Source: Nitrososphaerota archaeon (GTDB taxonomy: Archaea; Thermoproteota; Nitrososphaeria; Conexivisphaerales; DTJL01). Taken from it: a stretch of DNA of 64,000 nt. Position 1 is the first letter of the stretch. Each line of letters starts with the position of its first letter. Positions 29,917 through 34,772 of the stretch are shown here, one piece after another. The notes below the pieces were generated by a model. It ran no database searches. It saw only the letters and a list, made by a program, of their open reading frames with translations, and was not told the DNA's origin. The translations under genes were made by a program, and so were the position numbers. The stretch lies in the NCBI GenBank assembly GCA_021324115.1, contig JAJPJS010000018.1, positions 1 through 64,000 on the forward strand. Reading direction: 5' to 3'.

Positions 29917-30378
29917 TTGAACAGGACAAAATACATAGCCACGGCATCGGTTATGGCCGCTCTTTACCTGGTTCTCGTTCTCGCCTTTGCGGGCATCTCC
30001 TACGGGCAGATTCAATTCAGAGTCGCAAATATACTGATCGGGGTTGTTCCACTGCTAGGAATGCCCGCCGTGGTGGGGATAACCGTGGGTGTGTTTGCCT
30101 CCAACGTAATTTCGCCCCTCGGGCCGCTTGACCTGCTTTCGGCGATTCCTTCATTCGTTGGCCTGGCTTTGATATACAAACTCAGGAACAGGAGCGTGCT
30201 TCTGGGGCTCTCAATCTACACACTCCTGGTTTCACTATGGGTGAGCTTCCTGATATTCAGAACCTATGAAGTACCTTGGGTTCCAACCTTTGCGTATGTT
30301 TTTGTTGGCGTATTCCTTGCCACGGTGGTTGGTGGCTATGCCGTGTACAGGGCCGCAGGAAAGGTGATGGCCAAGTGA
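29917..30378 (+). CDS. queT: QueT-family membrane protein (queuosine/archaeosine precursor uptake)
   Basis: A 153-residue polytopic protein with about five helices, matching QueT-type ECF S components (GISYGQIQFRVANIL, then LLGMPAVVGITVGVFASNV and LGPLDLLSAIPS). These take up preQ0/preQ1-like 7-deazaguanines. Its stop overlaps the queC start, which supports the assignment. TATA-like CTTAAAT (29886-29892) is centred 28 bp before the TTG at 29917, making a leaderless TTG start plausible. No ECF ATPases are adjacent. Confidence 0.78.
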   Translation: MNRTKYIATASVMAALYLVLVLAFAGISYGQIQFRVANILIGVVPLLGMPAVVGITVGVFASNVISPLGPLDLLSAIPSFVGLALIYKLRNRSVLLGLSIYTLLVSLWVSFLIFRTYEVPWVPTFAYVFVGVFLATVVGGYAVYRAAGKVMAK

Positions 30379-31055
30379 AGGCAGTGGCCGTGGTATCAGG
30401 AGGGCCAGACAGCATGGGGTACGCCGCGGTGTGGAAGTCGCGAGGCTTCGCCATACACCCCATTGTATTTGATTATGGCCAGAAGGGGAAGAAGGAGGTG
30501 GAAATACTGGGCCGGTTGTGCCCGAAACTTGGTTTCGAAAAGGAGGTGAGGGTAGACCTGTCATCATTGAGCAGGCTTTGGCCCAATACACAGCTTACCG
30601 ACCCATCGATTCGGGTTGAAAGTGAATATGCCAGGAATGTTGTCGTTCCTCTCAGGAATGGTGTGTTCCTCATGGTTGCGGCAGCCTATGCAGATTCGCT
30701 CGGAGCGGACCATCTGCTTTACGGAGCGCATCTGAGCGATTCAGCGAGGCGAGGAACAGGTGGAGAGCCACTTTACCCGGACTGCACCCCAGAGTTCGCT
30801 TCAGCACTTGAAGATGCCGTGAACAAGGGAAGATTTTCAGGAACGCCCATAAAAATACACAGCCCTGCGATCGAAGGGCTGACAAAGGACCGGCTGTTGA
30901 GAATGGCCTACGATGTCATGGGGGACCTGATATTCGAAACATGGTCCTGCTACCTGTCTGGGGATGTGCATTGTGGTGCGTGTGAATCCTGCAGCAACAG
31001 GAGGAAGGCATTCGCTGCGGCAGGCATCGAAGATAAAACCAGATATGAACATTGA
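30375..31055 (+). CDS. queC: 7-cyano-7-deazaguanine synthase QueC
   Basis: A 226-residue enzyme that converts 7-carboxy-7-deazaguanine to preQ0 with ATP and ammonia, feeding archaeosine in tRNA. The PP-loop is VVSGGPDSMG at the N-terminus. The C-terminal zinc site is formed by the cysteines of WSCYLSGDVHCGACESCSNR. The open frame extends to 30276, but the GTG at 30375 overlaps the QueT stop and gives the correct N-terminus. The usual signature SGGxDS has Pro in place of Leu or Met. Confidence 0.92.
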   Translation: MKAVAVVSGGPDSMGYAAVWKSRGFAIHPIVFDYGQKGKKEVEILGRLCPKLGFEKEVRVDLSSLSRLWPNTQLTDPSIRVESEYARNVVVPLRNGVFLMVAAAYADSLGADHLLYGAHLSDSARRGTGGEPLYPDCTPEFASALEDAVNKGRFSGTPIKIHSPAIEGLTKDRLLRMAYDVMGDLIFETWSCYLSGDVHCGACESCSNRRKAFAAAGIEDKTRYEH

Positions 31056-32088: not shown

Positions 32089-32943
32089 TTATGCTCTTGC
32101 GGCCGTTTCGAGGAGCTTCATTTCTTCAGGTGTCAACGACCAGCCTGCCCCTCCTGCATCCTCCTCTGCTCTCTCTCTGCTGGATATCCTTGGGATCGGA
32201 AATAACGCGGGACTCTTCTCCTTTATCCAGTTCAGAGATATCTGACTGTACGTCTTACCGCCATGCCTCTTTGATATCGAGTCCATGGCTTCCCTTACCT
32301 TGCGAGGTGGATTGGCAAGTGCGCCATTTGAAAGTGGTCTGTAGGCTATGACAGCCAGTCCTAGACGCTCTGAGTATGGAAGCAGGTCTGCTTCAATGTC
32401 ACGCACCAGCAGGTTGTACTCGACCTGATCTGAAATCAGCTCCTGCTTTGACAGTGAATCGACCGACTCTTGCACCTGGGTCACAGTGAAGTTGCTCACA
32501 CCTATGTACCTTATCTTCCCTTCATTGACCAGTCTTTCCATGCCCCTCATCGTTTCCCTTATCGGCACTCGCCTGCTGGGCCAGTGAATCTGATACAGAT
32601 CGATATATTTCGTCTTCAATCGTTCCAGGCTTCGATCTGCGGCACGGAGCAGGTCTTCGTAACCGGCGCGGCTGGGCCACACCTTGGTGGCTATGAAAAA
32701 GTCATCTCTTTTGAAATTCTGCATGGCTTCGGCAACGATTGGTTCGGTGAGATACACCTCGGCTGTATCGATGAAATTGAGGCCGAGTTCGAGCCCCCTC
32801 TTCAGTCCTTCAACTACGGTTTTACTTCCAGGCATCGTTTTCCCGGGAAACGTATCAGGGGATGTTTCCATTGTGTCATAGTAGGTTCCCATCCCGATTA
32901 CGGATATATGCTCTCTCGTCCAGCCGAAACTCCTTTTCTCCAC
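32089..32943 (-). CDS. Aldo-keto reductase
   Basis: A 284-residue NAD(P)H-dependent AKR. The barrel signatures include SVIGMGTYYD, NFIDTAEVY (catalytic Asp and Tyr), FIATKVWPS (Lys), IDLYQIHWPS (His) and GVSNFTV. The frame extends to 33045, but that would cross the divergent membrane-protein start; the GTG at 32943 gives the standard AKR N-terminus, and TATA-like CAATAATTT lies 27 bp upstream. Substrate unknown. Confidence 0.87.
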   Translation of the reverse strand: MEKRSFGWTREHISVIGMGTYYDTMETSPDTFPGKTMPGSKTVVEGLKRGLELGLNFIDTAEVYLTEPIVAEAMQNFKRDDFFIATKVWPSRAGYEDLLRAADRSLERLKTKYIDLYQIHWPSRRVPIRETMRGMERLVNEGKIRYIGVSNFTVTQVQESVDSLSKQELISDQVEYNLLVRDIEADLLPYSERLGLAVIAYRPLSNGALANPPRKVREAMDSISKRHGGKTYSQISLNWIKEKSPALFPIPRISSRERAEEDAGGAGWSLTPEEMKLLETAARA

Positions 32944-33023
32944 CAACAACCACCCTAAGATGGCGAAATTATTGAATTGTTCGTCGCATTCCACAAAAGT
33001 ATTTTTATCTTGAGAAGTACATT

Positions 33024-33770
33024 GTGCACGTGAGCTCGCTGACATTCACGTTGAGGACGAGGGCACTGGTCGCCCTTGTCCTTGTGGGCTCGGTCGTGTC
33101 TTTTGGCACGTTCGGCTATGCCATAATAGAAAAGCAGTCACTGCTGCAATCCTTCTACTTCATGAGCATGATATTCACGGCTCAGGGTCCGCCCTCGGAG
33201 CCAAAAACCACGGCGGGATTAGTTTTTGCTGCGTTGATGGCATACGTATCGATAGGTGTCCTGGTTTCTTCGATAGGCTTCCTCTTTGGCCCCTTCCTGG
33301 TTCAGGCGATCAAAGACGTGGTGAGAAAGGCGGAGGAAAAGTTCGAGCTGAAGAATCATGTGATCGTATGCGGATTCAACGAGATGTCAAGGCTTATACT
33401 GGAATCTCTCAAGGAAAGAGGGATACCACACGTCCTGATAGACCAAGACCAGTCCCTTGTGGAAAAGATGATACTTAATGGCGTGCCTGCAGTGTTTGGC
33501 GATGCCACATCAACTTCGACACTGAAGAATGCCGAGATCGGACATGCATGCTCCCTTGTCGCATGTTACCCGGACGACTCAAAGAATGCCTTCACCATTC
33601 TTACTGCAAAACAGCTGAAGCCGGATATCTTCTGCATCAGCAGGGTCACTCAGGAGGAAAATGTGGAAAAGCTGAAGATGGTGAAGTCCGACAGCATAGT
33701 GTCCCCGACTCTGGTTGGTGCGAAGATGATGCTCGAGGAACTCGCAGATCAGTACAAGGATAAAGGATGA
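33024..33770 (+). CDS. Two-helix pore-like membrane protein with TrkA-N (RCK) domain and aberrant filter
   Basis: A 248-residue protein built like an MthK-type potassium channel: TM1 (about 14-35), pore helix (40-51), TM2 (62-88), then a Rossmann RCK domain starting NHVIVCGFNEMSR (111-123). At the selectivity filter, where potassium channels have TVGYGD, the sequence is TAQGPPSEP (52-60). It should not be assumed to conduct potassium. The RCK half is intact, including DATS and a late VSPTLVGAKMM. TATA-like TTTTTATC is centred 25 bp before the GTG at 33030, the likelier start; 33024 is also in frame. PriL follows after 6 bp. Confidence 0.8.
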   Translation: MHVSSLTFTLRTRALVALVLVGSVVSFGTFGYAIIEKQSLLQSFYFMSMIFTAQGPPSEPKTTAGLVFAALMAYVSIGVLVSSIGFLFGPFLVQAIKDVVRKAEEKFELKNHVIVCGFNEMSRLILESLKERGIPHVLIDQDQSLVEKMILNGVPAVFGDATSTSTLKNAEIGHACSLVACYPDDSKNAFTILTAKQLKPDIFCISRVTQEENVEKLKMVKSDSIVSPTLVGAKMMLEELADQYKDKG

Positions 33771-33776
33771 ACACAC

Positions 33777-34772
33777 TTGTCGACCGCGTCTTTCAGCACG
33801 TATGAACTGGCCAGATACCCTTTCATTCCATCCGCGGAAGGATACCTGAAGGAGGTTGGATTTACACTTGAGGATGCGGCAACCCCCTCTATACTTGGTA
33901 GAGCAAAAGAGAGGGTGCTGGCAGCCATTGAGAGGCGTAAGATAAGCCTGAATCTCTCTGATATAGACAGGGAAATAATCAGCTTTTACGTATCTTTGCT
34001 GATTGTAAGGGCAACCGGTAGCGGGTGGCTTGCCAGGATTTACGCCAAGGCGGAGGGGGACAGGTCAAGCGAAGCCTTCAAGGACGAAAAGGATGCGGCT
34101 GTTTGCCGGATCGTCAATCAACTATTCGAAATGAACCTGCAGCAGGTTGACAAGCTTCCCTGGCAGATGAATACGAATTACATGAAGATCGCATTCGTAG
34201 CTCCTTTGCCTGTTTATCTGAAGGTTAGCTCCAAACTCGAACAGATCGATAACCCAAATCTGGCGTTAATCGAGAATGTCGTTGACCGGGGTAAGATCTA
34301 TTTGACTCGTGAAAGAGTTCTTGAGCTCGTGGAGGGACAATTTTCCGCTTTGATACTTGGGAGGATCAGAAGTCTGAAGACTCCCCCGTCACTTCCGAAG
34401 GACATGAAGAGTATTGTTGACGAAATCTCCGCAAGGATTCCGAAACCCAGGAGGCCCGACATCTCCAAATTCCAGTACATCGAAAAACTTCTCAAGGTCA
34501 ATGTTCAGGATGGCAGGCACAGGATACTCTGGCTCATCCTTCCGCCATATCTGGTTAATGTCAAACATCTCTCCGATGACGAGGCGATGGATGCGATCAA
34601 GGCGTACATGGAACGGGTTGGCTGGAAGGAAAGCAGGGCTGACAGAATAATAAGGTACAACATAAAGAGGGCCAGAAGGATCGGACTCATGCCACCCACG
34701 CTGGAAAGACTAGAACAGACCTCGCCCGGTCTATACAAAATCATAGTTGAAAGTATCAGCGGCGTGTCATAG
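33777..34772 (+). CDS. priL: DNA primase large subunit PriL, lacking iron-sulfur cysteines
   Basis: A 331-residue archaeal PriL, the non-catalytic primase subunit that supports initiation and primer counting with PriS. The N-terminus (YELARYPFIPSAEGYLK) and the helical body, ending with RHRILWLILPPYLV and RIIRYNIKRARRIGLMPP, match the family. Archaeal and eukaryotic PriL normally hold a 4Fe-4S cluster through four C-terminal cysteines. Here the whole protein has a single Cys (C110, in the N-terminal half), so no cluster can be bound. TTG start. The 3' end overlaps the convergent mutase gene by 17 bp. PriS is not in the window. Confidence 0.87.
   Translation: MSTASFSTYELARYPFIPSAEGYLKEVGFTLEDAATPSILGRAKERVLAAIERRKISLNLSDIDREIISFYVSLLIVRATGSGWLARIYAKAEGDRSSEAFKDEKDAAVCRIVNQLFEMNLQQVDKLPWQMNTNYMKIAFVAPLPVYLKVSSKLEQIDNPNLALIENVVDRGKIYLTRERVLELVEGQFSALILGRIRSLKTPPSLPKDMKSIVDEISARIPKPRRPDISKFQYIEKLLKVNVQDGRHRILWLILPPYLVNVKHLSDDEAMDAIKAYMERVGWKESRADRIIRYNIKRARRIGLMPPTLERLEQTSPGLYKIIVESISGVS

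Follow-up and report, generated by a model that had tools for sequence, protein, structure and literature searches.

The window analysed here, a 64,000-nucleotide stretch of DNA from a Nitrososphaerota archaeon, encodes a protein in which a two-helix pore domain carrying a Gly-Pro (GP) filter loop is fused to the N-lobe of an RCK domain. By analogy with known channels, we put the probability at about one half that this protein, a member of an unnamed clade of GP-filter proteins, forms a homotetrameric cation channel of low selectivity whose gating depends on ligand binding to the RCK N-lobe. The open reading frame (ORF) occupies positions 33,024 to 33,770 on the forward strand, has a GTG start and specifies 248 amino acids, its domain assignment being based on Pfam, phmmer and AlphaFold analysis. 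A candidate archaeal TATA box, TATTTTTATC, read directly off the sequence at 33,000 to 33,009 (+), lies approximately 15-25 nt 5′ of the GTG codon, which suggests a leaderless transcript.

Domain layout and filter loop

A phmmer search of solved structures aligned residues 10-245 of the window protein with residues 16-248 of MthK (PDB 1LNQ, 6OLY; E 6e-22), and MthK was also ranked first when the AlphaFold model was submitted to Foldseek, making it the best full-length match in both sequence and fold. The model (mean pLDDT 84.7, pTM 0.55) was computed for a monomer from an alignment of 10 sequences, the other rows of which came from loci found in our genome searches. Its secondary structure, together with the Foldseek match to MthK, gives the topology of a pore-loop protein: TM1 (residues 10-36; 33,051 to 33,131), a pore helix (residues 40-51; 33,141 to 33,176), a re-entrant filter loop (residues 52-62; 33,177 to 33,209) and TM2 (residues 63-105; 33,210 to 33,338), which includes the FGP motif of the family at residues 88-90. 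As in MthK, the pore is followed directly by the RCK domain, here a Rossmann-like N-lobe spanning residues 112-247 (33,357 to 33,764; all on the forward strand) that is supported by Pfam, AlphaFold and Foldseek. Pfam places TrkA_N on residues 113-228 (E 9.7e-28), and Ion_trans_2 remained below threshold (11.3 bits against a cut-off of 22.5). The top NCBIfam model was that of Escherichia coli Kch (PRK10537; residues 13-243), but its score of 110.8 bits does not approach the 425 bits required for that family; Kch differs in its filter and has six transmembrane helices (PMC4565861).

The filter loop, TAQGPPSEPKT, differs from that of MthK, which has TVGYG. Residues 51-62 read FTAQGPPSEPKT, so that the filter itself is TAQGPPSEP, with two prolines and no GYG, and neither form of the K+ channel signature (TVGYG or TVGFG) is present. 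G55 and P56 occur in all family members inspected, according to the loop table and alignments. In larger alignments the conserved Gly of the GP loop corresponds to the first Gly of GYG, with Pro at the position of Tyr, and TVGYGD probably exceeds the GP filter by one residue. When three sequences, MthK among them, were aligned, a different register resulted, and the residue-by-residue equivalence of the two loops, which differs between alignments, is therefore uncertain.

An orthologue, L004, is present in a genome (G001) of another genus within the same family (f1), in the same neighbourhood as the window gene, with six neighbouring genes in common. The two proteins are 63-65% identical, and L004 retains TAQGPPS despite synonymous changes in five of the seven codons, which rules out the possibility that a sequencing error conceals a GYGD filter. 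Synonymous sites are saturated between the two genes (pS 0.85), and pN is 0.25 overall and 0.19 in the pore loop; judged by these values, the pair is under purifying selection. The alternative that the motif is peculiar to the window sequence, and variable, was likewise rejected, since the loop recurs in homologues and is conserved across a wider clade, mostly in proteins without an RCK domain.

The original prediction of a channel-like protein with an RCK domain and no K+ filter is thus upheld by the filter sequence, the TrkA_N match and the MthK-like fold. Its further statement that the layout of MthK is intact holds for TM1, the pore helix, TM2 and the RCK N-lobe, but not for the C-lobe or the Ca2+-site residues of MthK. 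The RCK C-lobe (TrkA_C) is missing, the protein stopping at residue 248, approximately equivalent to residue 251 of the 336 in MthK. Residues D184, E210 and E212, which we take to form the main Ca2+ site of MthK, are replaced by C181, R207 and T209 in the window protein, and likewise in L004, so gating through this site is unlikely. Nucleotide-binding RCK/KTN domains are recognised by GxGxxG after the first strand and an acidic residue ending the second. Read from the sequence, the glycine motif of the window RCK is degenerate (C-G-F-N-E-M-S); since D140 ends the second strand, binding of a nucleotide or NAD(H) is nevertheless possible. RCK domains are variable at the C-terminus, and those of Kch may form no octameric ring (PMC4565861); lack of the C-terminal sub-domain therefore does not necessarily make an RCK defective.

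Distribution and descent of Gly-Pro loop proteins

Approximately 30 pore proteins from archaea carry the signature T-[A/G/T]-[Q/E]-G-P, and its counterpart in a branch that is more distant and mostly bacterial is [G/A/S]-G-[M/E]-G-P. Gly-Pro is present in all 42 distinct loops tabulated (31 archaeal, 30 of them with T-[A/G/T]-[Q/E]-G-P, and 11 of the GMGP type), in a table that was gathered with a pattern requiring GP; among the family hits read by eye the only other filters were the TVGYG-type loops of L072, L073 and L107, all of which lie outside the clade. TAQGPP-type filters are therefore conserved among homologues, and the warning that the protein would be mis-annotated as a potassium channel was justified, the K+ filter being replaced and the replacement conserved.

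Standalone two-helix relatives were detected in 14 of the 21 genomes of a family from another class of the same phylum (f66) and, within the class of the window organism, in 21 further genomes from families f11, f91 and f92, with loops that include TAEGPA, TTQGPA, TAQGPP, TAEGPP, TGQGPP and TGEGPS. Class and phylum searches covered samples of genomes, and across the phylum the family is rare (4 of 398 evenly drawn genomes at E ≤ 1e-14). GGMGPV-type loops occur in archaea of family f12 (two genomes; L106, L174), on Thioclava and Gloeothece plasmids and in 12 of 193 genomes sampled from the class to which a Verrucomicrobia contig belongs, where a few of the matches are fragments. The archaeal and GMGP-type profiles match one another with 98.3% probability (E 1.2e-14), and the archaeal profile matches most bacterial GP proteins at E values of 1e-7 to 2e-13. 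A search of plasmids with an archaeal two-helix pore as query gave no match, and the window protein returned Kch-type proteins, matches that were probably driven mainly by its RCK part; the viral contigs searched also yielded none. All relatives seen outside the family of the window organism are short two-helix proteins without an RCK domain, and those with annotated records, such as WP_075777347.1 of Thioclava and WP_013334446.1 of Gloeothece, which share the pore domain and Gly-Pro loop of the window protein, are designated 'hypothetical protein'. RCK-bearing GP proteins were seen in two genomes only, as the window protein and L004. We found no description of the GP filter in the open-access literature. 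On a Thioclava plasmid (L128, 2878-4184) the GP-loop gene may be part of an operon, as it shares a few bases with the beginning of a gene whose product has a mechanosensitive ion channel domain.

Position 54 is Q or E throughout the archaeal branch and M (E once) in the GMGP branch, a split that suggests branch-specific tuning. The pore might have a different permeant, which could be a divalent cation, ammonium, a methylated amine, a proton or a small neutral solute, with selection by a ring of Q or E at this position together with the prolines, and dimethylammonium is known to pass CNG-type filters (PMC6091977). We consider this improbable, since neither the sequence nor the neighbourhood ties the proteins to such permeants and the neighbours vary by lineage.

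We dropped the filter columns from an alignment of 60 pore domains; in the resulting tree (88 columns, with weak inner forks) a branch with support of 98/94 separates all 34 GP proteins from the canonical TVGYG/TVGFG channels, as well as from a TIGLY-type group. Judged from this tree, the GP-filter proteins are one clade by common descent of the pore. In the RCK tree, the domains of the window protein and L004 group with those of L005, L036, L107 and L033, which are TVGYG/TIGYG-type channels (93/91). The window pore thus has its affinities with RCK-free GP proteins and the window RCK with TVGYG/TIGYG channels, and the domain was either gained by fusion or is ancestral and was lost by the relatives. 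Elsewhere, RCK domains typically belong to K+ channels and transporters, and the closest RCK relatives here lie on TVGYG channels. On these grounds the window protein might still be a K+ channel, selective through another geometry of the TAQGP loop. This we regard as very improbable: the signature Tyr-Gly is replaced in every member of the clade and, if the larger alignments hold, the threonine that forms the S4 site is A, G or rarely T.

Genomic neighbourhood and candidate partners

Comparison of neighbourhoods across families identified no conserved operon partner outside close species. In the f66 genomes, an apparent second pore gene adjacent to the GP gene was rejected, as a neighbouring small protein, which looks like a VOC/glyoxalase-type protein, had been joined via an out-of-frame ORF. 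In the window, the gene 6 nt after the channel gene (33,777 to 34,772, +) encodes a protein whose C-terminal part matches Pfam PriX (Primase X), with no other primase family detected by Pfam at E 1e-5, and it keeps its place in G001. Upstream, an aldo/keto reductase ORF (32,089 to 33,045, −) extends, as listed, into the 5′ end of the channel ORF; the actual start of the reductase probably lies further downstream, because the relative in G001 is called at 287 residues compared with 318 in the window. Further upstream, ORFs for a QueT transporter and QueC (29,917 to 31,055, +) overlap one another in different frames; this arrangement suggests that uptake and synthesis of queuosine/archaeosine precursors are linked in one unit.

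The genome of the window organism encodes two further RCK channel-like proteins. L003 (contig C2, 1237-2265, −) is a canonical two-helix RCK channel with a TVGYGD filter and is a candidate for an ordinary K+ channel of this organism. L002 (contig C26, 1219-2454, −) has a non-canonical filter, TTIGLYVPNGG, and its relatives in several archaeal families (with TIGLYAP, TIGIYAP and TLGFYGP filters) form a well-supported group of their own in both the pore and RCK trees.

Both are possible partners if the window protein is a non-conducting sensor or regulatory subunit, in which the Gly-Pro loop seals the pore and function depends on assembly with another channel or transporter; the absence of the GYG signature and the stiffening of the loop by two prolines are in keeping with such a role. 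However, no canonical Ion_trans_2 channel was found in 15 of the 16 good-quality genomes that encode GP proteins: Ion_trans_2 gave no match at E ≤ 0.001 in 11, four of the five matches were the GP proteins themselves, and the sole canonical channel was L003 of the window genome. An obligate K+ channel partner for the clade is therefore unlikely. Moreover, no partner gene recurs beside the GP gene across families, and conservation of the loop throughout the family exceeds the need of a mere spacer. The suggestion of a regulatory subunit has consequently lost ground, and we rate a non-conducting role of this kind as unlikely.

Predicted conduction and gating

With the family profile, the best matches to solved structures were NaK chimeras with a CNG-type filter (4zbm, 3.1e-9; 6fiz, 4.9e-9), which have the same two-helix pore as the window protein. 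Wild-type NaK (2ahy) was also matched, so the preference may in part reflect general likeness outside the filter. The CNG-type filter (TVGETPP) resembles TAQGPP in the lack of Tyr-Gly and in the prolines that follow the filter, but the residues differ and T-[IV]-G-E-T-P-P is not present in the window protein. CNG channels, moreover, have six transmembrane helices in a voltage-sensor architecture and a cyclic-nucleotide-binding domain, whereas the window protein has two helices and no cyclic-nucleotide-binding Pfam domain was found in it.

The K+ sites of TVGYG are formed by the carbonyls of the Tyr-Gly segment and by the threonine hydroxyl. In a conducting GP protein, four subunits would probably assemble as a homotetramer, with the TA(Q/E)GP loop lining the outer pore; as the K+ sites of TVGYG would be lost, a pore of reduced length or greater width, with poor discrimination, is to be expected. 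CNG filters are wide and allow partly hydrated Na+ and K+ to pass (PMC12375067), and their NaK2CNG mimic, which carries the CNG residues ETPP, has been studied for dimethylammonium permeation (PMC6091977). By analogy, a pore lined by the GP loop would be expected to admit partly hydrated cations with little discrimination among them. The RCK N-lobe would bind a cytosolic ligand, our best guess being a nucleotide or NAD(H) rather than Ca2+ at the main MthK site, and the ligand-bound domain would exert a pull on TM2 by which the gate is opened or closed. Alternatively, Q in place of E, together with the two prolines, might block the pore instead of allowing conduction.

More tentatively, and with rather less confidence than we attach to a poorly selective channel in the window organism, the clade as a whole may represent widespread, unrecognised minimal two-helix channels of archaea and bacteria with a permeant other than K+, to which one archaeal lineage added RCK control. 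The GP filter flags both a group of 'hypothetical proteins' and 'potassium channels' that are likely to be mis-named. If these proteins conduct, they would provide a natural experiment on the pore-loop fold without Tyr-Gly, in RCK-free and RCK-fused forms, and would test both the evolution of selectivity and the capacity of an RCK domain to gate a non-K+ pore.
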